A DNA stretch of 64,000 nt from the NCBI GenBank assembly GCA_020832285.1, contig JAFIFB010000023.1:1-64000 (forward strand), given 5' to 3'. Within the stretch, counting starts at the first letter, position 1. Each line of letters starts with the position of its first letter. This stretch comes from Balneolaceae bacterium (GTDB lineage: Bacteria > Bacteroidota > Rhodothermia > Balneolales > Balneolaceae). The position numbers were made by a program, and so were the translations under genes. Below the pieces are notes generated by a model. It was not told the DNA's origin. It worked only from the letters and a program-made list of their open reading frames with translations, and made no database searches. Of the stretch, positions 27,025 to 55,204 are shown piece by piece.

Positions 27025-27034
27025 TTAGATGAAT

Positions 27035-28624: not shown

Positions 28625-28648
28625 GTTTATTGATGGTTTAAAAAGTTT

Positions 28649-31600: not shown

Positions 31601-32017
31601 AATTAATTCTACTTTTTCAGGTTTAACTTCTTTTAATATAACCTCACCTCTGGATGTCAACACCGCTTCATAACCGGTTCCAGACAGAATATTCATAAGA
31701 GCGTCAGCTACACTTATGCTTTCCTGAATAATGGTGATATTGACATCATTTTCAGGGAGCATATTGGAATCGAATGCAATTTCAAGATTAGCCTGATTTG
31801 AAATATAAAATAAGGCCTCTTCAATGGACTTATTTTTTATACTTAAGTCCATTTGATGCTCCAGCTCCGGTATTTGAGTCCCATATTCGGAAACAGGATA
31901 GTATACTGAAGCTACTTGATTTGTATTTTTATCTTGTGCATTTAAAGTATTAGCAATCAGCATTACCAGAATCACTGATGCTGTTTTCCTGATATATTCA
32001 GTAACAAAGTGCTTCAT
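28649..32017 (-). CDS. SusC/RagA family TonB-dependent receptor with STN domain
   Basis: STN-like (SIEEALFYISNQANLEIAFDSNML), GTITDSESGEPLPGVNIVV, VVGYGTQEQIDLTGSVSSI, SVLKDASSAAIYGSRAANGVILITTKRG, C-terminal YTLGLNITF. Confidence 0.96.
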   Translation of the reverse strand: MKHFVTEYIRKTASVILVMLIANTLNAQDKNTNQVASVYYPVSEYGTQIPELEHQMDLSIKNKSIEEALFYISNQANLEIAFDSNMLPENDVNITIIQESISVADALMNILSGTGYEAVLTSRGEVILKEVKPEKVELIVQDVIQGTITDSESGEPLPGVNIVVLGAEELTGSTIGTQSDMDGAFSISVPDELNTLVFSYIGYRTKQVEINGQEEVQVELQPDVQMLDDVVVVGYGTQEQIDLTGSVSSISSERIESRPASNLTSLLQGTSPGVTITQNSGRPGDEGHSILIRGVGTMNNAQPMVIVDGVESSMNDVNPQDVASISVLKDASSAAIYGSRAANGVILITTKRGEAGTLNVNYNTYIGRDQATRLPDYVSSAEYAELYNEANRNQGLDPRYSQDEINLFASGEDPYNYPNTPWLDLLLQGSGFTQYHNLSFSGGSEVNRYRISLGYNEQKGLLEKTNSERYNLRVNFDSQMSDWFDFGLNTALSRRNISNPSNPNDSGGGIFQFFRQANRIPPNVANKYEDGSWDRHDDGNPIAWVEEAGMFNSAISHIVGTVFGRAEILDGLSLRGNASADYQLTDSKHHFRTIEYGDGSVQGPNRVTDQVNRNSIITLETMLDYVQDFGPHGVEALAGASRRYEEYNMLSGYRQNFPSNEISELTAGSQEGWQNDGSAVEDKLASFFGRINYNYDRRYLIQANIRRDGSSKFARGDRWGWFPSFSAGWRISEESFMQDVSWLSELKLRASWGMLGNNRIGNYQYIPLISLGRNYNFGGSIAPGAAQTSPANEEITWETTTEVDIGLDAAFLGNRLTLTLDYYDRFTDDILTSVPVSDLFGLPAPTVNAGAMRNKGVEFEIGMMDTFTDFQYNVSLHGAFNDNVVERYENPHFGTSIRAEGVAWNSYYGYEAIGQFQSQEDIENSPHIQGRSPNVGDLKYKDQNGDGVIDGDDRVVLGNTIPEITFGLNLGAEYKGVDISMFFQGADRVYRTIHPEAMWPFQNGAKVQRMHLDRTIVENGEIVQHGHYPRVYTTATSGHTTSYYEFSSFSVLDASYIRLKNLQVGYTLPMSWLPNISNVRVYFSGENLFTLTGFPGNFDPETPNGVGYPQIKTYTLGLNITF

Positions 32018-32100
32018 AATGATGTTGGGTGTTTAGTGTTTTAGATTTTAACGTGTCTAACAATCTTCTTTTTTATTTTTATTTATTGTTTTTTATACAT

Positions 32101-33207
32101 TTAGATGACTTTAATTTGATTGTCATCCAGTATCATATAGTGCAGATCTATCGATTCATTCAGTAATTCAAATACATCCCTGATATGGCCTTTTCTCATA
32201 TTGAGCGTAATTCGGCTCTCTCTCATTTTTGAATCGGCCAGTTCTGACGTAATTTTCACATCAAACCATCGCTCAAGAGTTTGAAAAATTTCTTCAAGTG
32301 AGGCTTCCCTGAAAATGAGCCTGTTATCCATCCAGCCCAGTAAATCTTCGAAATCTCCTGTTATGCCGGAGGTTATACTAAAGTTTGTTTTATCGAAAAC
32401 TCCAACATCTCCAGCTTCTAACAAGACTCTATTTTCTAAACCTTCATCCAAAGTTCTGCTATCAGCTTTTACTTCCGGAAGTATCTTTTTCAGAGCAACC
32501 ATCCCACTCTTCACCACAATCTTCACTTCCCTGTCGCTTTCATAGGATCGAACTCCAAATGACGTTCCAAGCACTTCTGTAATAGAGCCATGACTCTCAA
32601 TTAAAAAGGGGCGATCCGGATCTTCGGTTACATCAAAAAAGGCTTCTCCTTCAAGAATCACTCTTCTATTGTCATCACCGAACTGACGGGGTATCAGAAG
32701 TTTACTGTCTACGTTGAGCGAGACTTTCGTTCCATCACCAAGTGTAATATTGGCCCGTTCTCCACGATTTGTGGATACCTCTTCAAGCACAGCCTTTTCT
32801 TGCATTGCTGCTTCTGCAGATGGTGTATAAATGAATTCATATGTTAGATATGCTGATGTAAAAGCTACAAGAATCAAGGCAGCTACTTTCAGCAAACCTG
32901 CAAAAGTGGCTTGTTTTTTTCTTTTTTGGTGAAGGGCATGAATTTTTTTCTGTCTTTCTTTAGCCCGTTCCCTTCGGATGTGTGAAGAAACTGAAGCCCA
33001 ATCTTTGTCAAGATCCAGTTTACTTAAAAAAAGTTTATCCTCTCTATCCTTTCCGGAATACCGTAATTCCTTCAGGAAGTGCAGAGTTTGGCGGTTCTTT
33101 TCATCAGATTTAAGCCACCGATTCAGCAGTTCTTCATCTTTTCGGGTCATGGAATCGTTAAAATACCTGGCCAGAAGTTCCCAAACATGGTCGGGCAAAT
33201 GCTTCAT
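32101..33207 (-). CDS. FecR family anti-sigma factor
   Basis: EEVSTNRGERANITLGDGTKVSLNVDSKLLIPRQF, VILEGEAFFDVTEDPDRPFLIESHGSITEVLGTSFGVRSYE; single TM. Confidence 0.93.
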   Translation of the reverse strand: MKHLPDHVWELLARYFNDSMTRKDEELLNRWLKSDEKNRQTLHFLKELRYSGKDREDKLFLSKLDLDKDWASVSSHIRRERAKERQKKIHALHQKRKKQATFAGLLKVAALILVAFTSAYLTYEFIYTPSAEAAMQEKAVLEEVSTNRGERANITLGDGTKVSLNVDSKLLIPRQFGDDNRRVILEGEAFFDVTEDPDRPFLIESHGSITEVLGTSFGVRSYESDREVKIVVKSGMVALKKILPEVKADSRTLDEGLENRVLLEAGDVGVFDKTNFSITSGITGDFEDLLGWMDNRLIFREASLEEIFQTLERWFDVKITSELADSKMRESRITLNMRKGHIRDVFELLNESIDLHYMILDDNQIKVI

Positions 33208-33464
33208 ATAATTAAACTAATTATCGTTTTTGGTATTCAGCTGTTGATTAGAAGGTCGTTACCAGAACAACACCTTATTATCAGACTACTTACCTATATG
33301 ACGCAGTAAAACTTCAGTACCCCCCTAAAAAAGATATATTTTTTTAACTCATTTAATAACTGTTACTTAGAAATGATTACCTGAACTTAAGACTATCCAC
33401 CCGCTAATAAAATGTATCTATCAAATGAATTTGAAAAGATTCCAAAGACCTTAACACTATCTAA

Positions 33465-34007
33465 CTAATCCGATAAATAGACCTTTTGTAACCTTTCCCG
33501 TAAAAAGAGCAGAGCCCTTCCCATTTGATTTTCAACAGTTTTTCGTGTAATTCCCATCACTTCTGCAATTTCCTTATATGATAGGCCGTGTTTGCGATAA
33601 AGTGTGAATATCGTACGCTTTCTCTCCGGAAGCTCTCTAACTTCTTTCCAAATCTGGTTCGTTAGCGGTTCATCCCTGTAAGAGAGGATTTCTTCCATTT
33701 CATAAAGATCGGATTTTGTGTTCAACGCTTCAGAAATGTCCGTACTGGGTTTTGTTTTACGCAATTGACTGATAGCCTGATTTTTTACAGCCTTATATAG
33801 ATATGCTTTTACTGAAGAATTGATATTGAAATTTTCACGGTTGTCCCATATTCTGATAAACACTTCCTGAACGACATCTCTTGAAAGATCTGCAGAACCG
33901 ACATATTGATTAGCGAAAAGACACAGGTCAGAATACCAGGTTCGGAATAATTCTCCAAACACCTCTTCATCACCCTTCCGGATTTTTTCAATCAGTTCCT
34001 TTTCCAT
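33465..34007 (-). CDS. ECF RNA polymerase sigma-70 factor
   Basis: VFGELFRTWYSDLCLFANQYV, SRDVVQEVFIRIWDNRE, RELPERKRTIFTLYRKHGLSYKEIAEVMGITRKTVENQMGRALLFLRERL. Confidence 0.94.
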   Translation of the reverse strand: MEKELIEKIRKGDEEVFGELFRTWYSDLCLFANQYVGSADLSRDVVQEVFIRIWDNRENFNINSSVKAYLYKAVKNQAISQLRKTKPSTDISEALNTKSDLYEMEEILSYRDEPLTNQIWKEVRELPERKRTIFTLYRKHGLSYKEIAEVMGITRKTVENQMGRALLFLRERLQKVYLSD

Positions 34008-34340: not shown

Positions 34341-35618
<1,278 letters not shown>

Positions 35619-35724: not shown

Positions 35725-38700
35725 CTAATCAAAAAATACTCTCAGCTCTTCCTCAGTCCATAATTCTGTACGTTCTCCGGTTGTCTGCCGAATTTCTTCT
35801 ATTTGTGACGGGGCAACCGGTTCTTCATCATGCCAGTTTGCACGGATATAACTGATCACCGCGGCTATTTCCTCATCGTTCATCCATGAAAAAGGAGTCA
35901 TCACGCCTCTTTCACCCCGTTTGCCCTGCAATACGATCCGGACGAGAGCTTCGTGAGATCCGCCAGCCCATTCCGATCTATCCATCGATGGTGCCACACC
36001 TCCGCTCACATGGCAGGCAGCACAATTTCTCTGAAAAGAGATCGCTCCCTCCCGGTACCACTCCGGCCGGTCTTCTTCTGTCGAATCATCTGCCCTCTGA
36101 ACGATAACCTCCTCCTGATCCTGCGACCTGGAGATAATCTCCTGTTGCCATTCAGGCCTGTCAGCGGCTTCATCAGGTGTAAGCCAATTCACTGTATGAT
36201 AAATGGCGTTTTCAGAAATTTCACCATCTTCAAACAAGAGATTATAGGCGATTTTCATCTGCATCACCGATTTCATATCTCTTATTTCAAGAAAGACTTC
36301 TGTTCTATCCTCTGAAATTTCGGCTGAAAGAATCTCAACCGATTCACGCCCTTCTGTATCGGGATCATCCGGCAAAACCTCTGGGGAACCGTAGCGGGCT
36401 GAATAGACATACCCCCATCTTTCGGCCTGGTAATTCTGAATGTTTTGAGCCTCATCAGGATCAAGCGGATCCGTGAACACAATTCTCACACCTTCGGGAG
36501 AGACGTGAAAATGTTTGGGAAGATTGGCACTGCCACCGGCATATCGTATCCGTTCAAAGCCTCCATCATCAGTTGCAAGAGTCTGCCAGCCTCTTAGTCC
36601 GGTCACATATAGCTGGCCGTCATGCGGATTCATCTGCCCACGCACCAAACCCGAACTGGATTCTACAGGCAGTTTTACAATGCCTCCCTGATACCGGCCA
36701 TTCATCTCTTCTTTTAATACAGTAAATAGCGTGCGCTGACTGTAGGAGCCTAAAATCCACTGCCCGGCGAGCGGCCCCCAGCGGGAGTCTCCGGCATAGA
36801 TAATCGGTCCCGTTGAGTTGTTTACGTGGTAAGGCATCCAGGCTACAGGTGGATCGAAATCTCCCACCTCAAGGTTTTCTCCTCCGTGACGCCGGTCGCC
36901 ATAAAAACCACCTTTTTCCAAGACATCAAACCGGTCTACCGGAACCCAATTCCCTTCCTGATCGGCACCCAGAATCTGGTCGTCCGGGCCAATACCGAGA
37001 GAATTTGCACCCCGGTATCCACGAGCGAATATTTCACGTTCAGAACCATCCGCGGAAACCCGGATCAGAGATCCATGCTGCGGTATTTCGGGAGGAACCC
37101 GGTTTCCGTTTTTGAAAAAGTAAAAATTTCCCTCCGAATCAACCTGGAGCTCCAGCGTATGAGCCATCGGGTAGACAATGCCGTCGTTGTTGAAATTTTC
37201 ATAAAAATCGGCTTCCCCATTGCCGTTCAGATCGCGCAGGCGTGTTAGCTGGCTTCGTTCGGTTACATAAATCTCATCATCCACAACAGCTACTCCCATC
37301 GGGTAGAAAAGCCCCGATGCAAAACGCTGCCAGGTCACCTCTTCCAGGGAGTCGTTCAGCCCGGAGACGATCCACACATCCCCGTTCCAGGTAGAAACGG
37401 CTGCCCTGCTGCCATCTTCAAAAAAGTCGAGGCCCGACAGGCGCATCCAGGATTTCCAGGGATTATCGAACGGAACGGGAATACGGTCAATCACATATCC
37501 TGACTCGCGTTCATCCAGTTCTCCGGATGCAGCCAGTTCCTGAGACCATCGGGAAGACCCTCCCTGTATTTTTGCCTTGAGATCGGGCAGATCTTTTTGA
37601 GCCATCATTCTGCCAAAATTTTCAAAAAGAGTATCATCAGCGGAATTCATTTCGAACATCAACACCCTCACCGATCTGGCGTTGCGGGATGAAGGCAGAT
37701 GAAGTTCAACCCGGCCGTCTGATTCAACCAATTTTACATCTTCACCTGCATCAAACAGACGAACGGCAAAAGCGGCGTCACCGGTGGAAAAAATAATTGC
37801 TTCATCCGATTGGGTTTCAACGACCCAGTTATCCCGCTTTTCTGCGATCAGAGCTTTCATATCACCTTCTGAAGCATCAGCCTGAAGCGTGCGCATAAAG
37901 GCTGGTGAATCTCCATACCGGATGATTCCGGGCAGTTCAAGCAGATTGGTTTCTCCAACGGTGTAAGAGAGCACAACCTGGTTTCCATATCGATAAAACC
38001 CTTTATAGTGGGCCCAGTCGTGCGGCAAATTTCCCAAACCATCATCCCTCGGTCCGTAGAAGCTTCCCTCTTTTGCCCAGCCGGCTATTTCGGAGGTCGC
38101 AAACACCTGACGGCCTTCAATCGATGCAATATCTGAACCTTTGTAACTTGTATAATCAGTTTGAGAAATATCCAGCCAGCCACCAACTGTTCCCGCGGCA
38201 AACCGTACCAGATCTGTATCAAAAACCATGGCTGCATCGTGATCGAGCCGGATAGCCAGCCCTTTTCTTACCAGTGCATCGGAGGGCCATTCCATTTTTA
38301 TAGATTCAGACAGAACAGGCCCGTAATCCATGATCTGGTATGAGCCGGGTTCAAATGCATCGATTTTGGGAGAGAGAAGTGGATATCCCGTTGTCCAGGA
38401 AATCGCATTAAATAGCATCTGAAGAAAATATTCGTTTTCAAAATCGGAGGGCAGCCCCATCGACGTGTAGAAAGCACGGCCGTTTTCTCCATATATGTTG
38501 GCCCATGCCAGCGGTTCATCAATCCCGCTCTCCTCTCCTCTGCCATAGAGCAATGGAACTGCATTAGTCCCCAGAGATGGATTATGATAAATTTTTCCGG
38601 GACGGTTCCATTCATCATCCACCCCTTTCAAAACAGAATGACCAGCCGCTTCATCTGCAATTCTTACATCAACAGTTTCGTCATCACCGTGACCATCGTA

Positions 38701-39204
38701 GTCTCCTCCTAAAACAAGCTCATCCATTTCTAATAAGTCCTGGAATGCATGGCTTGCAGTGCGAATTCCCAGAACGGGTTTCTCTGCCTCAATATGTCGC
38801 TGAATGTATTGAAGCTGCTCTTTCGGAAGGGTCATCCTCCGTGTAAATACAACCATCAGATCAGCCATTTCAAGCTGCTCAATATCCGGCAAATCGCTTC
38901 CCTGATCTTCACCCCAGGAAGCGGTGATCTTGATTTGCGAATGCTGTCCGGAAATGAGCTGTTTGAGATCTTTCAGAGATGCTTCCGATTCGTACTCGGC
39001 CGACCCGGAGATAAAATGAATATGCAGTTCCGGTCCCTCAGTTCCTGTAGTATCAGAATCAGCCGATATTTGCCAAAACACAATGGCCCCGGCCAAAAAT
39101 ATCAGCAGGAAAAATGCTGAGGATAGAATCAAACGCACCCTTCCTTTTAAACTACTCTTATTTTCCGGTTCTATATTACCTGTTTCTGAGTTATGCGGCT
39201 TCAT
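35725..39204 (-). CDS. Multidomain membrane-anchored protein: ThuA-like + DUF6797-like + sugar-dehydrogenase-type beta-propeller + cytochrome c
   Basis: N-terminal TM; ThuA-like KPVLGIRTASHAF...GGDYDGHGDD...NAISW; propeller VYVTERSQLTRLRDLNGNGEADFYENFNNDG; heme site NCAACHVSGG. Confidence 0.8.
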   Translation of the reverse strand: MKPHNSETGNIEPENKSSLKGRVRLILSSAFFLLIFLAGAIVFWQISADSDTTGTEGPELHIHFISGSAEYESEASLKDLKQLISGQHSQIKITASWGEDQGSDLPDIEQLEMADLMVVFTRRMTLPKEQLQYIQRHIEAEKPVLGIRTASHAFQDLLEMDELVLGGDYDGHGDDETVDVRIADEAAGHSVLKGVDDEWNRPGKIYHNPSLGTNAVPLLYGRGEESGIDEPLAWANIYGENGRAFYTSMGLPSDFENEYFLQMLFNAISWTTGYPLLSPKIDAFEPGSYQIMDYGPVLSESIKMEWPSDALVRKGLAIRLDHDAAMVFDTDLVRFAAGTVGGWLDISQTDYTSYKGSDIASIEGRQVFATSEIAGWAKEGSFYGPRDDGLGNLPHDWAHYKGFYRYGNQVVLSYTVGETNLLELPGIIRYGDSPAFMRTLQADASEGDMKALIAEKRDNWVVETQSDEAIIFSTGDAAFAVRLFDAGEDVKLVESDGRVELHLPSSRNARSVRVLMFEMNSADDTLFENFGRMMAQKDLPDLKAKIQGGSSRWSQELAASGELDERESGYVIDRIPVPFDNPWKSWMRLSGLDFFEDGSRAAVSTWNGDVWIVSGLNDSLEEVTWQRFASGLFYPMGVAVVDDEIYVTERSQLTRLRDLNGNGEADFYENFNNDGIVYPMAHTLELQVDSEGNFYFFKNGNRVPPEIPQHGSLIRVSADGSEREIFARGYRGANSLGIGPDDQILGADQEGNWVPVDRFDVLEKGGFYGDRRHGGENLEVGDFDPPVAWMPYHVNNSTGPIIYAGDSRWGPLAGQWILGSYSQRTLFTVLKEEMNGRYQGGIVKLPVESSSGLVRGQMNPHDGQLYVTGLRGWQTLATDDGGFERIRYAGGSANLPKHFHVSPEGVRIVFTDPLDPDEAQNIQNYQAERWGYVYSARYGSPEVLPDDPDTEGRESVEILSAEISEDRTEVFLEIRDMKSVMQMKIAYNLLFEDGEISENAIYHTVNWLTPDEAADRPEWQQEIISRSQDQEEVIVQRADDSTEEDRPEWYREGAISFQRNCAACHVSGGVAPSMDRSEWAGGSHEALVRIVLQGKRGERGVMTPFSWMNDEEIAAVISYIRANWHDEEPVAPSQIEEIRQTTGERTELWTEEELRVFFD

Positions 39205-40915
39205 CGATGTTATTTACCTTTTGATTTAATTTTTTTCGCCATTCGGCAATACCAACCGCAGCAAGGAACAGTATGAGAACGCTAAGCCCCCAAAGTCCTC
39301 CGCGCATCCACAACATGTAGAGGCTGGCCGAGCTAATCAGTGCTACTGCTCCGATCATCAGCGTATTCCAGGCGATCCTCTTTTTACCTTTGGGCATGTG
39401 CCTTCCCATCAGGGCTTTGTTGTTCATCATTAATAAGAACGTAACATAGGCAATAGGAAGCAACAGCAGAGTAAGAATCGATGTTGGAATAGCCAGCCAG
39501 AAATAGGCCTGATCCCAGAAAAACGGCCCGAGAACTCCAAGGCCCGGCGCCAAAACACCCAGACGGAACAGCCATTTGCTTTTGGGCTTGTTGAAAACTT
39601 CACAGAGAACCATGCCAGATATGACCATCATCAAGGTAATACTGGAAAGCGCCATGCCCAGTACTCCGATTCCGAAAATCAGGTGACCGAAAAAGCTCCC
39701 CAGCAAGGGTTCGAGAGAAAAAGAGAGATCAAAGGCGTCCCTTGTGATTAATGTTGCCGCCATCACATGATCTTCTCTTCCAAGCTCTTCAATTTGCGCG
39801 GCAAGCTGCCCGTCAGTGAGATCACTTTCTTCTGATTCATAGAATATACGCCCCTCCAGCAGTTGGTGATATTCATTGACCTGGCTTTCCACCGGTTCCC
39901 ATTCGGCTGTAAACTCTTCGATAATACCGGGCTGGGGAACGGTATGAAACTGGCTGGTGGCTGCAATCATCACACAACTTACGACCAGCATAAAAGGGAT
40001 AAGCATACCTCCTGCAAGATCGAATTTCATCAGGCCCTGATATTCGGTCCCCCATTTCCGCCGAAGCATAGAGTAGGCAAACAGAAAGGTCATATTAATT
40101 CCAACAGCACTGGAAAGTGCCGCGGCCATGACATTCTGCTGGCGGGTTACAATCAGCTCCGTCCAGTATCCGCGGGAGGTTTCAGAAAGTCCCTCGAGGA
40201 GTGGGAGAAATCCTTCGGCCGGACGAAAGAACAGTGCAGGATTGGGAATAAAGCCCCGTCCCAGTTCTGCCCAGTCTATGGTACCGGCGATGAAAGTAAG
40301 CCGCACAACAACACCCATAAAACTGAGTACGACAATAGCAACCACACCTTTCAAAATCCATTCGTAAATCCTCACTCCGGTTCGCCCACGGTCGTAATTC
40401 CAGCTTACAGCAAGAGTAATGGCAAGCAGTACTACTGAAACCAATACCATACCCGGCACGCCCCCAAAAGAACCATCCTCACCGAAGATACCCGGCATCA
40501 GGTTTTGCTGCACCACACCGTTCGCAAGAGAAAACTGTGGCAGCGCCCACACAATACTGGCAAGCAGGGCAGCCAATGCCCATCCCCATCCCAGCACTGG
40601 ATTTACATGCCGGTTGATCGCCTGAAATGGGCGTTGATTTGTTACCAGAGTCACGTACCCCAGGGCGCTGAGCATGATGATACCCAGAAACATCGCAACC
40701 GGCTGAAGCCAAAGCATGCTGTAGCCGGTCAGAACCCCTAAATATAGACTGCTGGCCATCGAACCGCCACCGAGTGCAAGTGCACTTTGCAAAAAGCCGG
40801 GCCCTGACAGTTTCAGGTATGTTTTCAGCCGAACCGGAAGAGGCTTCCCCTGAATCTCTTTCAGAAGGTCGGACTCCCGGGTATAATCTGTTTCATTTTT
40901 TTTCATCATATCCAA
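39191..40915 (-). CDS. Nramp-like (divergent, non-DPGN) multi-pass membrane transporter
   Basis: YLKLSGPGFLQSALALGGGSMASSLYLG, AALSSAVGINMTFLFAYSMLRRKWG, about 11 hydrophobic segments; TM1 and TM6 metal motifs not conserved. Confidence 0.72.
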   Translation of the reverse strand: MDMMKKNETDYTRESDLLKEIQGKPLPVRLKTYLKLSGPGFLQSALALGGGSMASSLYLGVLTGYSMLWLQPVAMFLGIIMLSALGYVTLVTNQRPFQAINRHVNPVLGWGWALAALLASIVWALPQFSLANGVVQQNLMPGIFGEDGSFGGVPGMVLVSVVLLAITLAVSWNYDRGRTGVRIYEWILKGVVAIVVLSFMGVVVRLTFIAGTIDWAELGRGFIPNPALFFRPAEGFLPLLEGLSETSRGYWTELIVTRQQNVMAAALSSAVGINMTFLFAYSMLRRKWGTEYQGLMKFDLAGGMLIPFMLVVSCVMIAATSQFHTVPQPGIIEEFTAEWEPVESQVNEYHQLLEGRIFYESEESDLTDGQLAAQIEELGREDHVMAATLITRDAFDLSFSLEPLLGSFFGHLIFGIGVLGMALSSITLMMVISGMVLCEVFNKPKSKWLFRLGVLAPGLGVLGPFFWDQAYFWLAIPTSILTLLLLPIAYVTFLLMMNNKALMGRHMPKGKKRIAWNTLMIGAVALISSASLYMLWMRGGLWGLSVLILFLAAVGIAEWRKKLNQKVNNIDEAA

Positions 40916-40962
40916 TACTGTAAAGCATCATTTTAAATTTCATGTGCCTGTAATCTTTTGAC

Positions 40963-42378
40963 TTATTCCACCGGCCAGTGTTCGGTTTCGGTGCGGGCTG
41001 ATTGAAACAGCTCTTCGGCCCGGGCCACAATATCCGGGTAGTCATCCGCCAGATCCTGCTCTTCACCGATATCTTCTGCCAGATTGTATAGCTCAATGTG
41101 CTGATCGATATTATTTCTCACTGCTTTCCAGTCATCAAAACGCACAGCCTGGCTGAATCGCCCCTCGTGGAATTCCCAGTATAGGTATTCCGGATCCTGT
41201 TGCGGCTGTCCTAAAAGTGCGTTTACCATCGAAATGCCGTCAATATCATCAGGCGGTTCAACACCGGCGAGTTCAGCAGCTGTGGGCAGAAAATCCCACA
41301 TTGACCATACCTGTCCGCTCTCTTCACCGGCGGGTACAGTTCCCGGCATCCGAACGATCATCGGCACGCGAATCCCGCCTTCATACAAATCCCGCTTGAT
41401 GCCACGTAATGGCCCGTTGCTGTTGAAATAGTCTGGGTCGTACCCGCCTTCAGCATGCGGTCCATTATCACTCGTAAAAAAGACGATGGTGTTTTCATCA
41501 ATCCCGAGTTCATCTAATAAATCCAGTAATCGCCCGATATCTCTGTCCATTCTCGTTACCATCGCGGCAAAAGTTGCATTGGGCATCTCCTGAGGACTAT
41601 AATTTCCGGCTCCTTCAAACGGGATCTCTTCAAAAATGCTATTTCCATTTTCATCCAGGTAATCTTCGAGGGAGTCTTCAGGTACAAGCAGTTCCGCATG
41701 TGGTATCTGTAATGCGAGATAAAGGAAAAACGGATTATCACGGTTTTCACTAACGAATGTCATCGCTTCCTCCATATCAAGATCATGGGTGTACTCACCA
41801 CGCTGTCCATCCAGATTTCCTTCCAGAACCACCTGTTCAGTATTGCGCCAGACCCATTCCGGATAATAGGTGTGTGCCCGGGCCTGATTTAAAAACCCAT
41901 AGAAATAGTCGAATCCTTTTTTATTCGGTATTCCCGTGGTTTCCGGCTCTCCAAGCCCCCACTTACCGATAAGACCAGTTGTGTAGCCTGCCTGCTGCAA
42001 GACTTCGGCTACTGTTGTGTCTTCCGGACGGAGTGGCACACGATCACCTGTAGCACTGCTCGTGTTTCCTCTTAAGCGGGTTCGCCCTGTGTGCTGACCG
42101 GTCATCAGGCTGCTCCGTGCCGGTGCGCATACCGTATGCCCGGAATAGAATTGCGTAAACATCAATCCTTCTGATGCCATCCGATCGAGCCGGGGTGTTT
42201 TTATCACCTCTTGTCCGTATGCTCCGAGGTCTCCGTACCCGAGATCATCAGCCATAATCCAGATGATGTTGGGCTGATTATTTTCTTGACTTGCAGATTC
42301 TTCACAGCCTGTAAATAATGCGACCCCGGCAATTATCAATCCCAAAATCAGTATTGTAAACGTATTCTTTTTTATCAT
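40963..42378 (-). CDS. Sulfatase (type I, formylglycine-dependent), lipoprotein
   Basis: NIIWIMADDLGYGDLGAYGQ; CAPARSSLMTGQHTGRTRLRGN (C-x-A-x-R); GLIGKWGLGEPE; FFTSDNGPHAEGG. Confidence 0.95.
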   Translation of the reverse strand: MIKKNTFTILILGLIIAGVALFTGCEESASQENNQPNIIWIMADDLGYGDLGAYGQEVIKTPRLDRMASEGLMFTQFYSGHTVCAPARSSLMTGQHTGRTRLRGNTSSATGDRVPLRPEDTTVAEVLQQAGYTTGLIGKWGLGEPETTGIPNKKGFDYFYGFLNQARAHTYYPEWVWRNTEQVVLEGNLDGQRGEYTHDLDMEEAMTFVSENRDNPFFLYLALQIPHAELLVPEDSLEDYLDENGNSIFEEIPFEGAGNYSPQEMPNATFAAMVTRMDRDIGRLLDLLDELGIDENTIVFFTSDNGPHAEGGYDPDYFNSNGPLRGIKRDLYEGGIRVPMIVRMPGTVPAGEESGQVWSMWDFLPTAAELAGVEPPDDIDGISMVNALLGQPQQDPEYLYWEFHEGRFSQAVRFDDWKAVRNNIDQHIELYNLAEDIGEEQDLADDYPDIVARAEELFQSARTETEHWPVE

Positions 42379-42453
42379 TTTTAATGATGGTTTATATTCG
42401 ATGGTTTTGGTTTGCTAACCCGGTAACATATTTTCATCTTAATGTTTTTTAAA

Positions 42454-45192
42454 TCACTCCTCGTCTGCCAGCTCAGATAGTTCCTCTCTTGTCCACATTC
42501 CACTTCGGCTGTCCGACTCTGCACGAATTTTTTCAATGGCTGACGATGAAACGGAACCGGCATCATGTCCCCAGGCAGATCGTATATACGTGAGGATGTC
42601 GGTGAGTTCTTCATCGCTGAGTGTTTCCATCGGAGGCATGGCCATCTCTCCCTGAAATCCGTTTAACACGATCCGTATCAATGCCTCTTCCGGACCAAGA
42701 ACCCATTCTGAATTTCGCAAAGGTGTGGCCAGTCGCTCCATCCCGCTGCCATCGGCCTGGTGACAAAGTGCACAATGAGTTAAGTATGCTTCCCTGCCCT
42801 GATTGGCTGTAACCAGTCCGGCAACCCTTGCTCTTTCGGCTTCCCCGATATCGGGATTTTCGGTGATGGCAACAATTTTTTCTACCGCATCCGGATAACC
42901 CAGCTGAGCCGCCGCGTACAGAAAAGGCCCGCTTTGGTCCTGTTCATTCCATTTCTTCTCTATCAAAGAGATTAGGGATTCTGGCACCTGTACCAGCGCC
43001 GGCCCCTGACTGAGGCCTGCTGTGATACCTGCAAATATGTTATCCAGATCTTCATTATCGGGCGTTGTTTCCAATAATCGCGCAAGCCGGTTAAGGTTTT
43101 TTTCGCTGACCTCCGGTGTGTAGTTGGTCTCCCACTCCGTATAGTCGCCTTTGTGATCCGGCATCCGGCTTCTCGGATAATTGGCGTACACGATCCAATT
43201 ATCATACGGATCGATACGGGTAAACGAAGGATTGTCCCCACGCTCGGCAGCCAACCTGCGGGCGATCCGCTCTGCAAGATGTTCACGGAAAAGCGAAGTG
43301 TGCCAATGTTCGTGGTTTTCAAGCCAGGTCATTACGGCATCTGCCTCGGTTGTCATAATCTCTTCCAGTGCCCACCAGATCAGCAGTGGTATATGTTTGT
43401 CGTCGGAAATATTCGGAAGTCTGTTCAGTTCTGAAATCAAACCCAGGGATAGTTCAGCAGGGAGGTATCTGGCTGTGCTGGCAAGCTGACTTCTCACTTC
43501 CGGATTCTGCTCGGTTCCGGCTTGTTTGATCAAAGCCTCCTGAACCCGGTCTGTGATTACACCATGATCACCTATCAGGCGAATGGCCCAGGCCCGAACT
43601 GAAGAATCAGAATGTTCAATGAGCTTTGCTGCCCACTCCGGATCCATTCCGCCTATCAGATTTGCCGTCCAGAGCGATTCAAGAGCCAGTTGCCCATTCT
43701 CATCCAGGGCCTGCTGCTGCAGCCGGGGAAGCAGCGAAGTCTCTTTTCTCTCTCCTATTAACCTGCGAGCCTGTTCACGATACCATTTTCTTTCATCACC
43801 AAGCAGCTCCATCAGCTCTTCACTGCTTTTTTCCGCCAGGTTAAAGGGACGCACAGGCTGGTAATTTTCGGACTGCAACCGCCAGATCCGGCCGCAGCTT
43901 TTGTCCCATGTATCACGCGGGTCAAGGTGGTCCATCCGGATGTCGCACCAGTCGGCAAAATAGACAGCGCCATCGGGCCCCGCTTTGGTATCGACGGGAC
44001 GGAAACTTCGGTCTGATGTCATAACCAGCGAATCACTGTCAACAGTTCTGAATGTTGAACCATCGCTGAAAAAATCGCTGGCCTGAACCCGGCTGGTCAT
44101 TGCCATACCCGATATGAGCTGTCCTTCGAAACCGGGCAGCTTGCCTTCTTCATAAACGGTAAACGTCATTGAGAAGCGGGCGGAATAACCTTCATGTTCC
44201 ATCACGGGAAACGATCCGAAGGAATAAGGCCGGGTAAATGGCCCGTGTTTCGGCCAGTTTTTATCGTATCTCCCTCCCTGAACCCAATGAAATCCACGAG
44301 TATTCCCACCATTATGGCCGGAAAATGCGCGCCCTTTACTGTCAAAAGAGAGTGTCCAGGGATTGCCTCCGCCTTCGGTAAAAAGCTCAAATTCATCGCT
44401 AACCGGATGATAGCGCCACACCGCCTGCCCGAGAAATCGGATTCCCCTGACCTCGGCCGTACTGGTGCTTCCGTGAACCCCGTAAATCCAACCGTCCGGA
44501 CCCCATGTAAGTGAACTGGCCAGGGAATGTGTATCCTCCAGGCCAAAACCTTCCAGGCGCACCTCTGGGTCACCATCCGGCAATCCGTTACCATTCCGGT
44601 CCGGATAAAAGAGCAGATAGGGCGGATTCATCACCCAGATTCCGCCCCCTCCGGTTAACACACTTGTTGTTATGTTTAATCCGGTGATGACATCTTTGGC
44701 AGAATCAAACACGCCATCGCCATTGGAGTCTTCAAGAACGGTAATAACATCGGAGCCCTCGGTATGATTGGGAGGTGCCTGCGGAACTCCGTCAAACCCG
44801 GCCCGCATATACTGGTCGTAAAAATTGATGGTTACGCCGGCCGGGAAGGGATACTGCCGGTATTGGACAACCCAAAGGCGTCCGCGTTCATCGAAGTGGA
44901 GATCGATCGGCTGGCGAATAAGGGGTTCGGAAGCCACAAGTTGCATGGCCAGGCCGTCAATCGGTTCAAAGGCTTCAAGTGATTCCTGAGGCTCTGGGGT
45001 AGTGTCATTCCCCATCCAGATTTCCAGTTTTTCTCCTCCGGCTTCTGCATAAATTTCAACAAACTCTTCGACCTCCGGAGTGAAAGGCCAATGCTCTGTT
45101 TGAGCCGTTTCAGAGCTGCACCCTGAGATAAGAAAAGCCACACAATAAAAAATGATGACCGGTCCGGTTTTAAAGAAGGAGATAAATGTCAT
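42454..45192 (-). CDS. PVC-type membrane-bound dehydrogenase-like beta-propeller + HEAT-like repeats + cytochrome c
   Basis: Start MTFISFFKTG (45192) gives lipobox FLISGCSSE; GRLWVVQYRQYPFP, VITVLEDSNGDGVFDSAKDV, GWIYGVHGSTSTAEVRG, GPDGAVYFADW; heme site CALCHQADGSGM. Confidence 0.85.
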   Translation of the reverse strand: MTFISFFKTGPVIIFYCVAFLISGCSSETAQTEHWPFTPEVEEFVEIYAEAGGEKLEIWMGNDTTPEPQESLEAFEPIDGLAMQLVASEPLIRQPIDLHFDERGRLWVVQYRQYPFPAGVTINFYDQYMRAGFDGVPQAPPNHTEGSDVITVLEDSNGDGVFDSAKDVITGLNITTSVLTGGGGIWVMNPPYLLFYPDRNGNGLPDGDPEVRLEGFGLEDTHSLASSLTWGPDGWIYGVHGSTSTAEVRGIRFLGQAVWRYHPVSDEFELFTEGGGNPWTLSFDSKGRAFSGHNGGNTRGFHWVQGGRYDKNWPKHGPFTRPYSFGSFPVMEHEGYSARFSMTFTVYEEGKLPGFEGQLISGMAMTSRVQASDFFSDGSTFRTVDSDSLVMTSDRSFRPVDTKAGPDGAVYFADWCDIRMDHLDPRDTWDKSCGRIWRLQSENYQPVRPFNLAEKSSEELMELLGDERKWYREQARRLIGERKETSLLPRLQQQALDENGQLALESLWTANLIGGMDPEWAAKLIEHSDSSVRAWAIRLIGDHGVITDRVQEALIKQAGTEQNPEVRSQLASTARYLPAELSLGLISELNRLPNISDDKHIPLLIWWALEEIMTTEADAVMTWLENHEHWHTSLFREHLAERIARRLAAERGDNPSFTRIDPYDNWIVYANYPRSRMPDHKGDYTEWETNYTPEVSEKNLNRLARLLETTPDNEDLDNIFAGITAGLSQGPALVQVPESLISLIEKKWNEQDQSGPFLYAAAQLGYPDAVEKIVAITENPDIGEAERARVAGLVTANQGREAYLTHCALCHQADGSGMERLATPLRNSEWVLGPEEALIRIVLNGFQGEMAMPPMETLSDEELTDILTYIRSAWGHDAGSVSSSAIEKIRAESDSRSGMWTREELSELADEE

Positions 45193-45199
45193 ACTGTTT

Positions 45200-46810
45200 T
45201 CATTTTTCCGCTGCCCATTCAATTGAATTGAGTAAAAGCCGGTTAAATTCAGGTAACTCAAAATCACCGGGAGAGCCAAGAGAGGTATAAAAAATGTTCG
45301 CATCTCCATATTTTCGCACCCAGGTTACCGGTTCCGGATCTCCATCCTCCCCTACTTTACCATACATCAAAGGAATTACATTATCGGCCAGGGGCTCGGT
45401 TTTGTAGAGCCATGAAGCTGCACGAAAGGGTTCCTGAGGCAGCCCTGCTAAAACCGGGTGTGAACTGTTTTGTGAAGAAACCTGTACCCAGGACGGGGGA
45501 TCATCCGGCGGACGATTCCCATGGTGACCGCTATAGCTGCCGCCGAGTACTTCAGGGTCAAATTCCGTCCAAGTTTCAAATGCGTGGCTGCTTGTGCGAA
45601 GAGCGATGAGCGGTTTGCCTTCATTAAGATACTTTTTCAGCCAGTTGAGCTGTGATTGTGGCAGGTGCCTGCGCCGTACATAAAGGATCACAAGGTCTGC
45701 ATCGCGAATCTGTTCGATGGCTGTAATTTCATCATCATCACTTTGAATGACATTAAATGCATAGTGCCCGCCTTCGGTAAGATATTCCTCTGCAAATTCA
45801 GGCAGTGTCAGATGGGCCTCATATTCATCTTCTGCAATCACAAAAGCGATGTGGGTTCTCTCATCTTCGGCAAATCTGAATGCCGGTTCTCCGGTAAAGT
45901 CGGAACTCAGGATGGTTGGCGCCCAGTATTTTTCAATATGTTCGGTTACCAGTTCTGTTCCGCGAAAATGAGTAACATACGGAGGCATTTCAGGATTGTA
46001 CATCGAATCGGTCATATCCCGCATTAATACCACGTTCATGCCCAGGTTTGCCATCTGCCGGATAGCGAAGGAGCGGCCAAGTACACACATATTGGTATGC
46101 ACACCCATGACAATTACATTTTCAATATTGTAATCCATAAAAAGGTTATAGACCTCCTGTCCGTCTTCGCTGATGGCGTCTTCATCATGGATTTCAATAT
46201 CGGCGATTTGGCTTGACCAGGCCCTGCCTTCCTCACAAGGTTGTCCGTCTGAACAGGGTTTATCGCATCCTCCATCTGAATCATCGATGGGAAGGTCCGA
46301 TTCGACCGATTCATCCAGATAACACCAGGCTGTAAGATCAAAACCTTCAGGTGCTTCATGCCAGTTTGCATCGACAGCCCTCTGCCGCTGCGGAGTTCCT
46401 TGATAGGCATCAAGAGTATTACTTGGGGCGTGAACAATCAGTGCTCCTTGATCTCTCGCCTCAGAAATAACCTGGTTCATTACCGGGGCAAGCTCCCCAA
46501 CGCGATCAGTAGCACTTTCACACCAATGCCGGTCCCACATATCCGCTACAATAATGGCAGTCCGGTTCGGATCCCAGCTCTCCTGCTGATGAACAACCTG
46601 CCAGATGCCGCTTCCGGCTTCTGTCTCTACCCGGCTTCGAAGAGTAAGATTAAATGTATTGGAACCTGGGTTATTTGAGGTATAATCAGTATTAACGGGA
46701 CTTTCTCGGTGCTCACTTGTTTCACAAGATACTCCCGCTAAAGAAATCAGGCAGACAGATACAAAAGTCAGAAAAGCGAATATATGTAGGTTACAATTGT
46801 AGTTGATCAT
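45200..46810 (-). CDS. Secreted lipoprotein fusion: isochorismatase-like hydrolase + ThuA-like domain
   Basis: Lipobox LAGVSCETS; NRTAIIVADMWDRHWC, VMGVHTNMCVLGRSFAIRQMANLGMNVVLMRDMTDSMYNP; then HIAFVIAEDEYEAHLTLPEFAEEYL...PLIALRTSSHAFE...GGSYSGHHGN...LNSIEWAAEK. Confidence 0.85.
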   Translation of the reverse strand: MINYNCNLHIFAFLTFVSVCLISLAGVSCETSEHRESPVNTDYTSNNPGSNTFNLTLRSRVETEAGSGIWQVVHQQESWDPNRTAIIVADMWDRHWCESATDRVGELAPVMNQVISEARDQGALIVHAPSNTLDAYQGTPQRQRAVDANWHEAPEGFDLTAWCYLDESVESDLPIDDSDGGCDKPCSDGQPCEEGRAWSSQIADIEIHDEDAISEDGQEVYNLFMDYNIENVIVMGVHTNMCVLGRSFAIRQMANLGMNVVLMRDMTDSMYNPEMPPYVTHFRGTELVTEHIEKYWAPTILSSDFTGEPAFRFAEDERTHIAFVIAEDEYEAHLTLPEFAEEYLTEGGHYAFNVIQSDDDEITAIEQIRDADLVILYVRRRHLPQSQLNWLKKYLNEGKPLIALRTSSHAFETWTEFDPEVLGGSYSGHHGNRPPDDPPSWVQVSSQNSSHPVLAGLPQEPFRAASWLYKTEPLADNVIPLMYGKVGEDGDPEPVTWVRKYGDANIFYTSLGSPGDFELPEFNRLLLNSIEWAAEK

Positions 46811-47096: not shown

Positions 47097-49280
47097 TCAC
47101 TCGACCCAGTTCAGCAGAAACTCATTCAGAGACAAAATGTTTAATCGGTCACCCGCATTTTCACGTTCATAGGCCGCTTCAATCACGGAGAGTTCGTCTG
47201 TGGCGTCTGGTGATCTCATCCATTCTCCGTTTGCTTCTGTGACTCCAGCCATGATCAAATTTCTCGGCGCGAGACTTGCAGCGAGGTCTGCCAAATCATA
47301 CTCACCTGCAGCTCCGGCAACTGTACTGAGATGATATCCCGGATCATAATAACGGTGATTAACCATTGACCTGTAGGAAATGTACGGTTCTAAAAGGGCG
47401 ACTCGGCTGATCCTCTCCTCAAATGCCGCGGCGTGAAGCAGAGCCGAACCCATCGTTTGCCTTGCCACTCCCAGGATTTCCTCAGCTCCAAAAGTATCTT
47501 CCAGCAATCTTGTCAATCTTACAATATCACCTGCATAAATTCCTGCGATACTACGTCCGATCATAACCGACGCCGGCCAAACATCATACGAAACGGGATC
47601 AAACTGTTTGACCTGCGCCCCGTAGTTTGCCATATCACTGCCGCCAAGCTCTCCAACACCCGGCAGGTCGGGTGCCAGAACCGTGAATCCCTTTTTCACG
47701 AACCATTCAATCTCACCATTTTCAGAAGCTTCAGCAGATTTGCCTTCCGGGTGAAGATAGATCACAGCTTTTCCTGATTCATTTTCCGGTACAAAAAGGA
47801 TGAAAGGCAGAATGTATTCACCTTCTCCTTCAGTAAAATATTTTTCAATAGTGTAACCTTCCCGGACAATCCGCCCCGTAAAAACAGGTGCTCCGGGAGT
47901 GCCGGGATCCCGGTACCCAGAAAGTTCTTTTGCCCTGGCAATGGCTTCGGGAATGTGATCCCCGTTATTCACTCTTGAGTTTTCAAGTCGGGTTATCCGC
48001 TCCTCTGCCAGTTTTTGGCTGATGGAGTGTACCGTTTCCCCTCCAAGAGAAGTGGATACTTGACCGGTTTCGGTTACACGAATCTCTTCATTGCTCAGAA
48101 TTTCCACGTCCAGATCTTCTGAGCTACCTGGATTACCGAGATGATCCTGAAAAAAAGCATACATCGCTTCCCGGTTTTTACGGGTAGACTGATGTCCGCC
48201 GCCATCTTCCACCATTTCAAAATGATCCGCTGCTCCCAGTGCTTCAAACATTTTCGACACTTCTGCAGCACTTTCCCTGGCACCCTGAATACTAAAAAAA
48301 TCTTCGGTTGTGGCGATCAAAAGTGTGGGATTGGGTGCTCGAACATGGAGATAATCAGCATGATCAATTCCTCGTGCAATGCCATGAGGTAAATTTTGTT
48401 CTGCATCCTGTGGACCGATGGATTGAAGCAGACGAGTAAACGTGGTGATGTAAGCTTCTGGCGCCGCGGCGTAAACCCGATCATCCACTGCGGCGATGTA
48501 GGCCGTTTGTGTACCTCCGCCCGATCGGCCGGTCATCCCGATCCGTTCCGGATCTACCTCATCCCGGGTGAGCAGGTAATCCACCGCGCGGATACCATCC
48601 CAGGTCATGATGGAAGCCAGCGAGCTGCCCGCTATAAACGCCTGAACCCCCGCATAGGAGTGTTCCCGGGTAGGTCCACCGACAATCGATTCTCCGGTTT
48701 CGGGATCATAATATTCGATACGTTCACCCTGCCCTACCGGATCAACTGCAAAAACGATAAATCCCTTTTTAACAAGGTTCAGCATTTTATGCTGATAGGT
48801 TGGCGAACGGTAACCATCCTGGGTATGTCCGCTCAGGTAGATGACAGCAGGGGCCGGATGAACGATATCATCAGGTAAAAAAAGTGTAGAAGTCACGTAA
48901 AATTCCGGACGGGACTCAAAAACGATATGCTCTGCCCGGTATCCCTCTTTTTCAATGGTACGTGTAATTTGTGGATTTAAGTCAGTTTTCTCAGGAAACG
49001 GACCCAGCATTTCCATAAGAGTCTCTTTTATTTCCTGCTGATAGCTTTGCCAGTCATTTGCAGATTGAAAAGAGGAAAGTCTGTCAGCGCGTTCCTTGAG
49101 GAGCTCCATCGCCTCTCCGGAGAGATGATGATAGAGCGAGTTGGGCGCATCACTGAAATGAATCCACCGGTTGTTGGAAGATTCACCCTGTATCACATTA
49201 AGCTGATCCTGGCCATAAAGCCCCTCGGCAAGGACCACCAAAACAACCAGCAGAATTTTGATGGTGCGTAGAAACATCAT
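47097..49280 (-). CDS. Secreted protein with two tandem alpha/beta hydrolase (esterase-like) domains
   Basis: Start MMFLRTIK (49280) gives signal peptide. Domain 1: AVIYLSGHTQDGYRSP, GMTGRSGGGTQTAYIAAVD, DGGGHQSTRKNREAMYAFF. Domain 2: KAVIYLHPEGKSA, FTVLAPDLPGVGELG, GVARQTMGSALLHAAAFEERI. Confidence 0.78.
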   Translation of the reverse strand: MMFLRTIKILLVVLVVLAEGLYGQDQLNVIQGESSNNRWIHFSDAPNSLYHHLSGEAMELLKERADRLSSFQSANDWQSYQQEIKETLMEMLGPFPEKTDLNPQITRTIEKEGYRAEHIVFESRPEFYVTSTLFLPDDIVHPAPAVIYLSGHTQDGYRSPTYQHKMLNLVKKGFIVFAVDPVGQGERIEYYDPETGESIVGGPTREHSYAGVQAFIAGSSLASIMTWDGIRAVDYLLTRDEVDPERIGMTGRSGGGTQTAYIAAVDDRVYAAAPEAYITTFTRLLQSIGPQDAEQNLPHGIARGIDHADYLHVRAPNPTLLIATTEDFFSIQGARESAAEVSKMFEALGAADHFEMVEDGGGHQSTRKNREAMYAFFQDHLGNPGSSEDLDVEILSNEEIRVTETGQVSTSLGGETVHSISQKLAEERITRLENSRVNNGDHIPEAIARAKELSGYRDPGTPGAPVFTGRIVREGYTIEKYFTEGEGEYILPFILFVPENESGKAVIYLHPEGKSAEASENGEIEWFVKKGFTVLAPDLPGVGELGGSDMANYGAQVKQFDPVSYDVWPASVMIGRSIAGIYAGDIVRLTRLLEDTFGAEEILGVARQTMGSALLHAAAFEERISRVALLEPYISYRSMVNHRYYDPGYHLSTVAGAAGEYDLADLAASLAPRNLIMAGVTEANGEWMRSPDATDELSVIEAAYERENAGDRLNILSLNEFLLNWVE

Positions 49281-49346
49281 AAAGGTATTATTTTGATGTT
49301 GAGGCGACTTGATCCGCAACGACAGATTATATCCGGCCAAAAACGG

Positions 49347-50762
49347 TCAGACATCAAATCGGAAAAAGTTCACCGAATTGTGGTAACTGATATTTTCAAT
49401 CATTTTGCCGACCAGAAGGCGGTCGTTTGGTATAAGTCCCCGCTCTATATCATCGCCCAACAAATTACAAAGGATTCGCCTGAAATAATCGTGCCGGGGG
49501 AAGGAGAGGAAACTGCGGGAATCGGTTGTCATCCCGATAAAAAGGCTCAATATGCCCATGTTCGATAGTGCTTCTACCTGTTTTTCAATTCCGTCGATCT
49601 GATCGAGAAACCACCAGGGCGGGCCGTACTGAAGTTTGCCGGGGATTGTTCCATCCTGGAAATTGCCTATCATAGTGGCAAATAGTTCGTTGTCGCGCGG
49701 ATTGTTGTTGTAGAGAACCACACGCGGAAGCCGGTCTTCCTGGTCAAGCCGGTCGAGCAGGGCTGATAGCTGCTCGCCAATCAAAAAGTCACCCATTGAG
49801 TCGAAGCCGGTATCACGGCCCAGTTCATTCAGCTTTCGGGTATTGTTGTTTCGCAGTGCTCCGATATGGAACTGAAACACCCACCCTTTTTCGTGATCCA
49901 TTAATCCGCACTCGTAAAGAAATGCCGATTTAAATTTCCGGACCTCGGATTCATCGGGCTCTTTTCCGGCCATCACTTTGGTGAAAATAGTACGAATCTC
50001 TTTCTCTGTGTAAGGATCTGCGTAAGGCCGGTCCACACCGTGATCGGAAGCTTTACACCCAAGTGAATCAAAAAAATCGTGGCGCTTTTTCAGCGCTTCA
50101 ATAAACTGACTATATGTAGTGATATCCATGCCGGCAGCATTTTCCAGCTTTCGAACCCAGGCACGAAATTCATCTCCATTTTCAATTTCCATACCCCGAT
50201 CGGGACGAAACGTTGGTACCATGATAAATTCTGTTCCTTCCTCCTCTTTAAAAGCAACATGGTGTTTCAGAGAATCTGTGGGATCATCCGTAGTGCCCAC
50301 CACTTTCACCCTGCTTTTTTTAAGAAGGCCACGGGCAGAAAATCCGGGCTGAGTAAGCATTTCGTTGCACTCTTCCCAGATGCTTTCTGCCGTTTCACCA
50401 TTCAGCAGGCGGTCGGTAATTCCGAAAGGATGGTTCAGCTCCATATGAGTCCAGTGATAGAGGGGATTTCGGAGCGTTTTGGGGACTGTTTCTGCCCAGG
50501 CGAAAAATTTCTCTTTGTCTGATGCATCCCCGGTTATGTACTTTTCATCCACTCCACAAGATCTGAGCGCACGCCATTTGTAGTGGTCCCCGTCCAGCCA
50601 AATATGAGTCAGGTTCCTGAAGTTGATATCTTTGGCGATCTGATCAGGCGGAAGGTGGCAGTGATAATCAATAATCGGCTGCTCCTCGGAAAATTCATGA
50701 AAAAGCTCGGAAGCAGTTTCGTTGTGAAGAAGAAAATCTTCGTGAATGAATGGTTTTTTCAT
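49347..50762 (-). CDS. uxaC: Glucuronate (uronate) isomerase
   Basis: PFIHEDFLLHNETASELFHEF, PIIDYHCHLPPDQIAKDINFRNLTHIWLDGDHYKWRALRSCGV, LYHWTHMELNHPFGI, VGTTDDPTDSLKHH, GMTTDSRSFLSFPRHDYFRRILCNLLG. Confidence 0.97.
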   Translation of the reverse strand: MKKPFIHEDFLLHNETASELFHEFSEEQPIIDYHCHLPPDQIAKDINFRNLTHIWLDGDHYKWRALRSCGVDEKYITGDASDKEKFFAWAETVPKTLRNPLYHWTHMELNHPFGITDRLLNGETAESIWEECNEMLTQPGFSARGLLKKSRVKVVGTTDDPTDSLKHHVAFKEEEGTEFIMVPTFRPDRGMEIENGDEFRAWVRKLENAAGMDITTYSQFIEALKKRHDFFDSLGCKASDHGVDRPYADPYTEKEIRTIFTKVMAGKEPDESEVRKFKSAFLYECGLMDHEKGWVFQFHIGALRNNNTRKLNELGRDTGFDSMGDFLIGEQLSALLDRLDQEDRLPRVVLYNNNPRDNELFATMIGNFQDGTIPGKLQYGPPWWFLDQIDGIEKQVEALSNMGILSLFIGMTTDSRSFLSFPRHDYFRRILCNLLGDDIERGLIPNDRLLVGKMIENISYHNSVNFFRFDV

Positions 50763-50817
50763 GTTATGTATAGAGTATTTCAGTAGTGAGTATCAAGTAG
50801 TGAGACGGATTAAAAAA

Positions 50818-50842
50818 TGAAAAGTGAAAAGTGAAAAGTGAG
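50818..50842. repeat. Tandem heptamer repeat (TGAAAAG)x3 plus partial unit
   Basis: tgaaaagtgaaaagtgaaaagtgag between kdgK stop and uxaC start. Confidence 0.85.
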
Positions 50843-50971
50843 ATAATACAATGGTCAACATGATTTTTATTCATGAATTTTCCTGAACTTTAAAAAACGC
50901 GTAAAGATATACCTCCAATTCAGAGGCACACACTTTTGACTTTTGCCTTTTCACATATAAAAATAAATCTG

Positions 50972-52003: not shown

Positions 52004-52071
52004 GATCTTTTGATATTATTAGATAAAATATTATTTCTTTACTCAGTTTATACTTTGAGTCTGATGGATCA

Positions 52072-52716: not shown

Positions 52717-52899
52717 CTTATTTTATGTGTCAGTAAAAATCTGGTGAAGTATTTTGTTAATGGGTGTTTGCGGAAATTTATCCATCGGCTCGTTTCGCTG
52801 AAATGTTCTGATTTATTAACGATAAATCAAACCTGAAAAAGAATTTTTTCCGGAGTCTGTTCCACACGAACCAGTTACAGATTAAAGTAAAACCATTCC

Positions 52900-53682: not shown

Positions 53683-53921
53683 CTATTAAATAAACTGTTA
53701 AATAATTAAAATGAGCACCGCTAAGATAAGCATCATAGAAAAGACATCATGAACTCTTTGATCCCCAATTATTTTGCATGATTTTTCAACCTGGCATTTT
53801 ACAACGCCATTAGAATTCCTGATATTCACCTTAACCGGTAAAGCTTTATTTTGTATATTATAAACAAGTAACTTTAAACGGTCAAGACTTTTTCTGAATA
53901 ATCCATAACATGCTTCAAAAA

Positions 53922-55127: not shown

Positions 55128-55204
55128 TTCAGTTTTATCCATAAGATTGTTATTTAACTGTAGCTAAATTTTATCCATCAAAACACTCAATTAACCAACT
55201 TAAT

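Follow-up and report, generated by a model that had tools for sequence, protein, structure and literature searches.

A run of five minus-strand genes in a 64,000-nucleotide stretch of DNA from a Balneolaceae bacterium (GenBank assembly GCA_020832285.1, contig JAFIFB010000023.1, positions 1 to 64,000; hereafter the window) may encode an exported, membrane-tethered unit for the oxidation of sugars. In order of transcription, the run comprises gene E (isochorismatase-ThuA), gene D (DUF7133-HEAT-cytochrome c), gene C (sulfatase), gene B (Nramp-related), and gene A (ThuA-DUF6797-propeller-cytochrome c). The products of E and D would form the core of the unit, with that of A as a relative. The domains, the synteny, the fusions, the modeled fold of the D propeller, which is like that of soluble glucose dehydrogenase (sGDH), and one c-type heme site each on A and D are the directly established parts. 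Around them the following route can be proposed. Surface lyases and the sulfatase C would free sugars or unsaturated uronates, and the D and A propellers would oxidize one of these freed products at the membrane surface. The electrons would pass to the propeller's own heme and then to the respiratory chain, while E, through its ThuA and isochorismatase-like domains, and the ThuA domain of A would process the oxidized product (e.g., a keto-sugar or lactone). Gene B would finally import a product for cytoplasmic enzymes of the UxaC/UxuA/KdgK/Eda type. Taken as a whole, we regard this route as plausible, if a little short of probable.

What speaks most strongly for a joint action of E and D is their fusion into a single polypeptide. 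Relatives of E are encoded at 244 GTDB places outside the Balneolaceae, the best 80 of which were surveyed for the E-D arrangement. In 27 of these, mostly from Verrucomicrobiota, a single open reading frame (ORF) of ~1500–1770 aa covers both E and D and has the heme motif near its C-terminus, and in 5 more D directly follows E on the same strand; the counts are affected by contig ends, many loci being incomplete. In the Balneolaceae, the two are separate neighboring genes. The pair as such occurs in several bacterial phyla. Given the fusions, the two constitute a single functional unit. Gene E (45200–46810, minus strand) encodes an exported protein of 536 aa with isochorismatase-like and ThuA domains (Pfam PF00857 and PF06283, respectively; ThuA 73.2 bits against a cut-off of 33.4, isochorismatase 30.0 against 27), and its N-terminus, read by eye, has a signal sequence whose lipobox is imperfect. 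Its AlphaFold model (predicted local distance difference test, pLDDT, 89.8) gave Foldseek matches to the ThuA-like structures 4jqs and 4e5v as well as to triuret/biuret hydrolase and RutB. The protein is thus similar to the isochorismatase-like amidohydrolases TrtA, RutB, and BiuH in fold and in the catalytic Asp and Cys, with Asp90 and Cys242 invariant across 81 sequences; unlike them, it is exported and fused to ThuA.

Gene D (42454–45192, minus strand) encodes a lipoprotein composed of an sGDH-like propeller (DUF7133/TIGR02604), HEAT repeats, and a C-terminal c-type heme site, CALCH, its one CxxCH motif. The Pfam scores are 191 bits for DUF7133, 35 for HEAT, and 45.5 for cytochrome c, and the NCBIfam model TIGR02604 (PVC-type heme-binding CxxCH protein) scores 201.6 against a cut-off of 122.2. 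The ORF extends from 42454 to 45309, and the start was placed at ~45192, where the lipobox ISGC, likewise read by eye, follows an internal ATG. In the AlphaFold model (mean pLDDT 71), the propeller is predicted to have an sGDH-type fold: the best match is the soluble quinoprotein glucose dehydrogenase of Acinetobacter (1qbi, E 3e-8), and further matches include the pyrroloquinoline quinone (PQQ) sugar dehydrogenases 3a9g, 7cdy, and 2ism as well as HHIP. The dehydrogenases came from the fold search alone, since the matches listed when the propeller sequence was searched against the PDB include none over the propeller. An earlier reading of the window, the preliminary description, had named propellers; they are indeed present, and can now be specified as sGDH-like in D and as related to DUF7133 in A.

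The association of ThuA with propellers that carry redox centers recurs throughout the 5.33 Mb genome (99% complete) from which the window derives. Per-family searches counted 14 ThuA domains, 20 DUF7133 matches, and 3 DUF6797 domains. Half of the ThuA domains (7/14) lie within 2.5 kb of a DUF7133 or DUF6797 propeller, against 0.3 expected under a simple random-placement model (P about 6e-9); three of the seven are fused to the propeller. The attached carrier varies: the propellers of the window and of contig C13 bear a cytochrome c, those of C14, C97, and C125 a cupredoxin. Because a blue-copper-type domain replaces the heme protein at the same place, one-electron transfer is probably the function common to these propeller proteins. 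Genes for cytochrome c assembly are present in the genome. The exported redox role proposed in the preliminary description thus gains from the tie between ThuA and heme or copper propellers and from the fold of D; on the other side, the canonical PQQ residues are kept only in part. Adjoining a ThuA gene, a fusion of GDSL lipase, DUF7133, and cupredoxin was also observed (L067:12207-15062).

Gene A (35725–39204, minus strand) encodes a membrane-anchored protein in which ThuA (63.7 bits, cut-off 33.4), DUF6797 (83.1 bits), and a propeller are followed by cytochrome c (45.3 bits) with the heme motif CAACH; the N-terminal anchor was recognized by eye. An intermediate encoded in the same genome links this propeller to DUF7133, and the stretch GYRGANSLG (consensus GFRAPNGV) may be an R-x-x-x-G-type motif at the place of HRNPQG in sGDH. 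Among the DUF6797-propeller homologues collected, only gene A and its orthologue in the same-genus relative G275 carry ThuA, which is absent from the ~20 others. In a tree of ThuA domains, that of gene A groups only with the G275 orthologue, its deeper origin being unresolved. The genome also encodes two divergently oriented proteins of 1431–1440 aa that are multiheme relatives of gene A (L066:8683-13002, minus strand, and 13633-17925, plus strand); both combine five CxxCH motifs with a DUF6797-propeller, and the one that was scanned has a weak PA14 match.

The thuAB genes of rhizobia are an example of the 3-keto-glycoside pathway, in which a dehydrogenase (LacABC or Gfo/Idh) is combined with a PF06439 hydrolase. 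ThuA domains are common to that pathway and to the run described here, and PF06439 and Gfo/Idh genes occur at paralogous loci of this genome, which also encodes a ThuA-PF06439 fusion (L067:2598-3965). The PF06439 family covers the 3-ketotrehalose hydrolase BT2157 and a proposed periplasmic 3′-ketolactose hydrolase (PMC9007349). Gene B has two paralogues in this genome. On C97 the order is SusC-SusD-PF06439-DUF7133/cupredoxin-ThuA-B-PF06439, and on C13 a DUF7133-HEAT-cytochrome c gene and ThuA are followed some 9 kb further by Gfo/Idh-B-Gfo/Idh. A distant relative of gene B in another family (G399) lies in a sigma-FecR-SusC-SusD-Gfo/Idh-B gene set that ends with two AP_endonuclease_2 genes. Gfo/Idh/MocA genes are also enriched beside E, accounting for 7/76 neighbors at ten Bacteroidota loci against about 0.8 expected; in Arenibacter, the genes after E encode Gfo/Idh and a further Nramp-family member that has GTGS instead of DPGN. 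In eight mostly planctomycete genomes, the neighbors of gene B were uninformative (Gfo/Idh 2/41, DUF1501 3). The link between ThuA and 3-keto-sugar metabolism drawn in the preliminary description is partly supported by gene B paralogues and by E elsewhere, whereas the window itself lacks both partner families. The wider C97 region (L162, G000 C97:83001-103000) contains SusCD, two PF06439 genes, DUF7133-cupredoxin, ThuA, the gene B paralogue, and an aldehyde dehydrogenase, and is a cleaner candidate for a keto-sugar system than the window.

Gene B (39191–40915, minus strand) encodes a membrane transporter that matches the Nramp family (PF01566, 52.5 bits) but lacks its metal-binding motifs. The canonical DPGN of the first transmembrane segment is missing: LGGGS, invariant in 4 homologues, aligns to LDPGN of human NRAMP1/2. 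The string MPH, canonical in the sixth segment, is found nowhere in the protein. Based on these replacements, gene B reads as an Nramp-related protein rather than a canonical metal importer, and the Nramp-like transporter of the preliminary description is not to be taken for an importer of metals; neither the motifs nor the gene context support an ordinary Mn/Fe importer. Since the motifs are missing and the paralogues are set among 3-keto-sugar genes, gene B more likely carries a sugar product. An NRMT-like transporter that provides the module with Mg, Ca, or Fe is a less likely alternative: the Nramp-related EleNRMT moves Mg2+ without the canonical motif, and gene B resembles such transporters in having neither DPGN nor MPH (PMC12873925), but its paralogues and the G399 relative sit in keto-sugar/SusCD gene sets and not among metal genes. 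Further members of the Nramp family, in which GPGS or GTGS replaces DPGN, are encoded near ThuA and Gfo/Idh genes (L069:8291-9613 and L154:12959-14221).

Several findings weigh against the sugar oxidation route. In gene E, the third catalytic residue of the amidohydrolases is not conserved: the 81 aligned sequences have no invariant Lys for the Asp-Lys-Cys triad, and an extra conserved Cys and His are found. In gene D, Gly occupies the position of sGDH Arg228, and Val that of the second Arg of the last blade, in every aligned homologue, as judged by motif matching and not by superposition. PQQ synthesis genes were not found above cut-off in this genome; pqqE gave a match below cut-off only, and the pqqC search, run without a working control, gave zero matches. 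At 46 of the 80 surveyed loci, E is full but no D-like gene was recognized beside it in the stretch of DNA covered, so that E may have other partners as well. Conservation does not extend to A and C, as they occur with E-D-B only in the close relative G275, and the linkage to uronate genes is found in this window and in no relative. Finally, the 64-kb window contains neither a PF06439 hydrolase nor a Gfo/Idh dehydrogenase gene, the known enzymes of the 3-keto-glycoside pathway, and for this reason no complete 3-keto pathway can be claimed for it.

The residues of D were read by hand-matching motifs to the aldose sugar dehydrogenase YliI of E. coli, hhalign having covered the last blade only and MAFFT having misplaced the middle blades. 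By this comparison, the D family retains the putative general-base His (sGDH His144) and the Asn (Asn229) of the R-N motif. It would be a distinctly improbable outcome if the propellers were non-enzymatic scaffolds for carbohydrate binding or docking, with an HHIP-like fold and hemes of other purpose. HHIP is among the fold matches of D and the canonical PQQ arginines are missing, as this explanation would have it; the retained His and Asn speak against it, and so does a C-terminal carrier that is cytochrome c in some proteins and cupredoxin in others on an otherwise constant propeller. Moreover, the fungal AA12 enzyme departs from the canonical PQQ residues and still binds PQQ (PMC4133262), so that D may use PQQ or another cofactor. 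AA12 CcSDH, described in the same study, likewise couples an sGDH-like propeller to a cytochrome. Compared with sGDH, L-sorbosone dehydrogenase, and AA12, gene D differs in its c-type heme and HEAT repeats, in the two replaced PQQ-ligand arginines, and in the genomic background with respect to PQQ synthesis described above.

Another explanation, which we consider rather unlikely, is that oxidation is carried out elsewhere, in the cytoplasm or periplasm, by 3-dehydrogenases of the Gfo/Idh/MocA or glucose-methanol-choline (GMC) type, with D and A as electron sinks or binding scaffolds for a conventional 3-keto-glycoside pathway and E rearranging its product. The enrichment of Gfo/Idh/MocA beside E, their presence beside gene B paralogues, and the matches above cut-off in this genome, 54 to Gfo/Idh and 22 to PF06439, are in line with it. 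None of these genes lies in the window, though, and the fusions join E to the propeller-heme protein and not to Gfo/Idh. The alternatives considered here are not all mutually exclusive, and their probabilities need not add up to one.

Conservation within the Balneolaceae was followed in five further orthologues of E (65–91% identical, one of them in another genus), the same-genus relatives compared being G119, G270, G274, and G275. G275 keeps the full order E-D-C-B-A, with A cut by the contig end and identities of 91–98% for A, B, C, and E and 82% for D. In G274, E-D-B is present without C, beside enolase-superfamily, AP-endonuclease-2, FAD-oxidoreductase, and PSCyt genes and not uronate genes. 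G119 retains E but has D in split form and B in part, accompanied by an enolase-superfamily gene and not by uronate genes; this module is probably in decay. In G289, E occurs without D. A conserved five-gene system, expected from the preliminary description, was rejected, as the five genes do not occur together in unrelated genomes; what stood is the wide fusion or adjacency of E and D and the E-D-B set of G274 and, decayed, of G119. The coupling of a redox module to sulfated-uronate breakdown did not hold beyond the window, and the attachment of the module to this uronate locus would be a local, recent arrangement.

Because relatives keep E-D-B without uronate genes, a module that sits in the uronate locus by chance and does a separate job is a serious rival, even if an unlikely one. 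It fits the enolase-superfamily surroundings in G274 and G119, whereas the operon-like spacing to the upstream uronate genes (6 bp between UxaC and the α/β-hydrolase, 286 bp between the latter and E) and the position of a sulfatase inside the run favor a common task. Within the run itself, E and D are 7 bp apart (taking D from the internal ATG at 45192), D and C 75 bp, and C and B 47 bp, and the reading frames of B and A overlap by 14 bp; on account of these distances, a single transcript is likely. Terminator-like sites in the region are not above chance expectation and thus give no ground to split the run. The five genes, as described earlier, are all present as minus-strand ORFs at the given limits, and their domains score above the Pfam cut-offs. 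Gene C (40963–42378, minus strand), a probable lipoprotein, qualifies as a formylglycine (FGly) sulfatase by its PF00884 score of 215 bits and the motif CAPAR, of the C/S-x-P-x-R type.

The ingredients of the module are known families, and the E-D fusion, the alternation of cytochrome and cupredoxin, and the Nramp-related carrier are the specific additions. By score, gene D belongs to the PVC-type heme-binding CxxCH proteins (TIGR02604/DUF7133), which together with the planctomycete cytochrome genes (PSCyt/PSD) are among the closest known systems. PSCyt genes have been found near sulfatase genes and with carbohydrate-binding modules, and carbohydrate degradation by an unlike mechanism was suggested (He et al., PMC5615132); a text search of that paper returned no mention of ThuA. 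The present module differs from the planctomycete genes in its Bacteroidota-type SusCD setting, its isochorismatase-ThuA partner, and its Nramp-related transporter. The literature searched yielded no papers on DUF6797 or DUF7133 and no useful ones on ThuA function. Planctomycetes, Verrucomicrobia, and some Bacteroidota encode many exported heme proteins without assigned purpose beside sulfatase and glycan genes. For one branch of these, the E-D fusion, the carrier swap, and the keto-sugar neighbors provide a testable hypothesis, namely respiration-coupled sugar oxidation outside the cytoplasm as part of the breakdown of sulfated or acidic glycans. They also suggest that sugar products are the cargo of some Nramp-related proteins now annotated as transporters of metals. 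Whether this amounts to a widespread, undescribed group of surface sugar oxidases, with an sGDH-like propeller linked to cytochrome c or cupredoxin, an isochorismatase-ThuA partner, and Nramp-fold carriers shifted from metals to sugars, is doubtful.

The flanks agree with the uronate locus previously recognized. Upstream of E, in the same direction, lie a two-domain, acetyl-xylan-esterase-like α/β-hydrolase (47097–49340, minus strand; Pfam) and the uronate catabolic genes UxaC, KdgK, Eda (2-keto-3-deoxy-6-phosphogluconate, KDPG, aldolase), and a short-chain dehydrogenase/reductase (SDR) (49347–53682, minus strand), followed on the plus strand by UxuA and an AP-endonuclease-2-type sugar isomerase (53910–56074). 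A homologue of the hydrolase (L156, 844 bits) occurs near E in a Sphingobacteriales locus. Downstream of A, after a gap of 106 bp, an exported propeller-like protein of twin-arginine translocation (Tat) type (34341–35618, minus strand), with zero Pfam or NCBIfam matches, is probably part of the same transcript. Beyond it, the minus-strand region 16069–34007 encodes an extracytoplasmic function (ECF) sigma factor, FecR, SusC/SusD, an amidohydrolase, and lyases of the PL8 and heparinase II/III types. At 16069–18574 (minus strand), the C-terminal domain of the heparinase II/III type is divided between two overlapping ORFs (profile positions 4–83 and 106–220), which indicates a frameshift; an insertion sequence (IS)-type transposase (DUF772, 14325–15932) adjoins these ORFs. 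At the other end of the window, FG-GAP and FG-GAP/ASPIC proteins are encoded next to a second SusD gene (57453–63913, minus strand).

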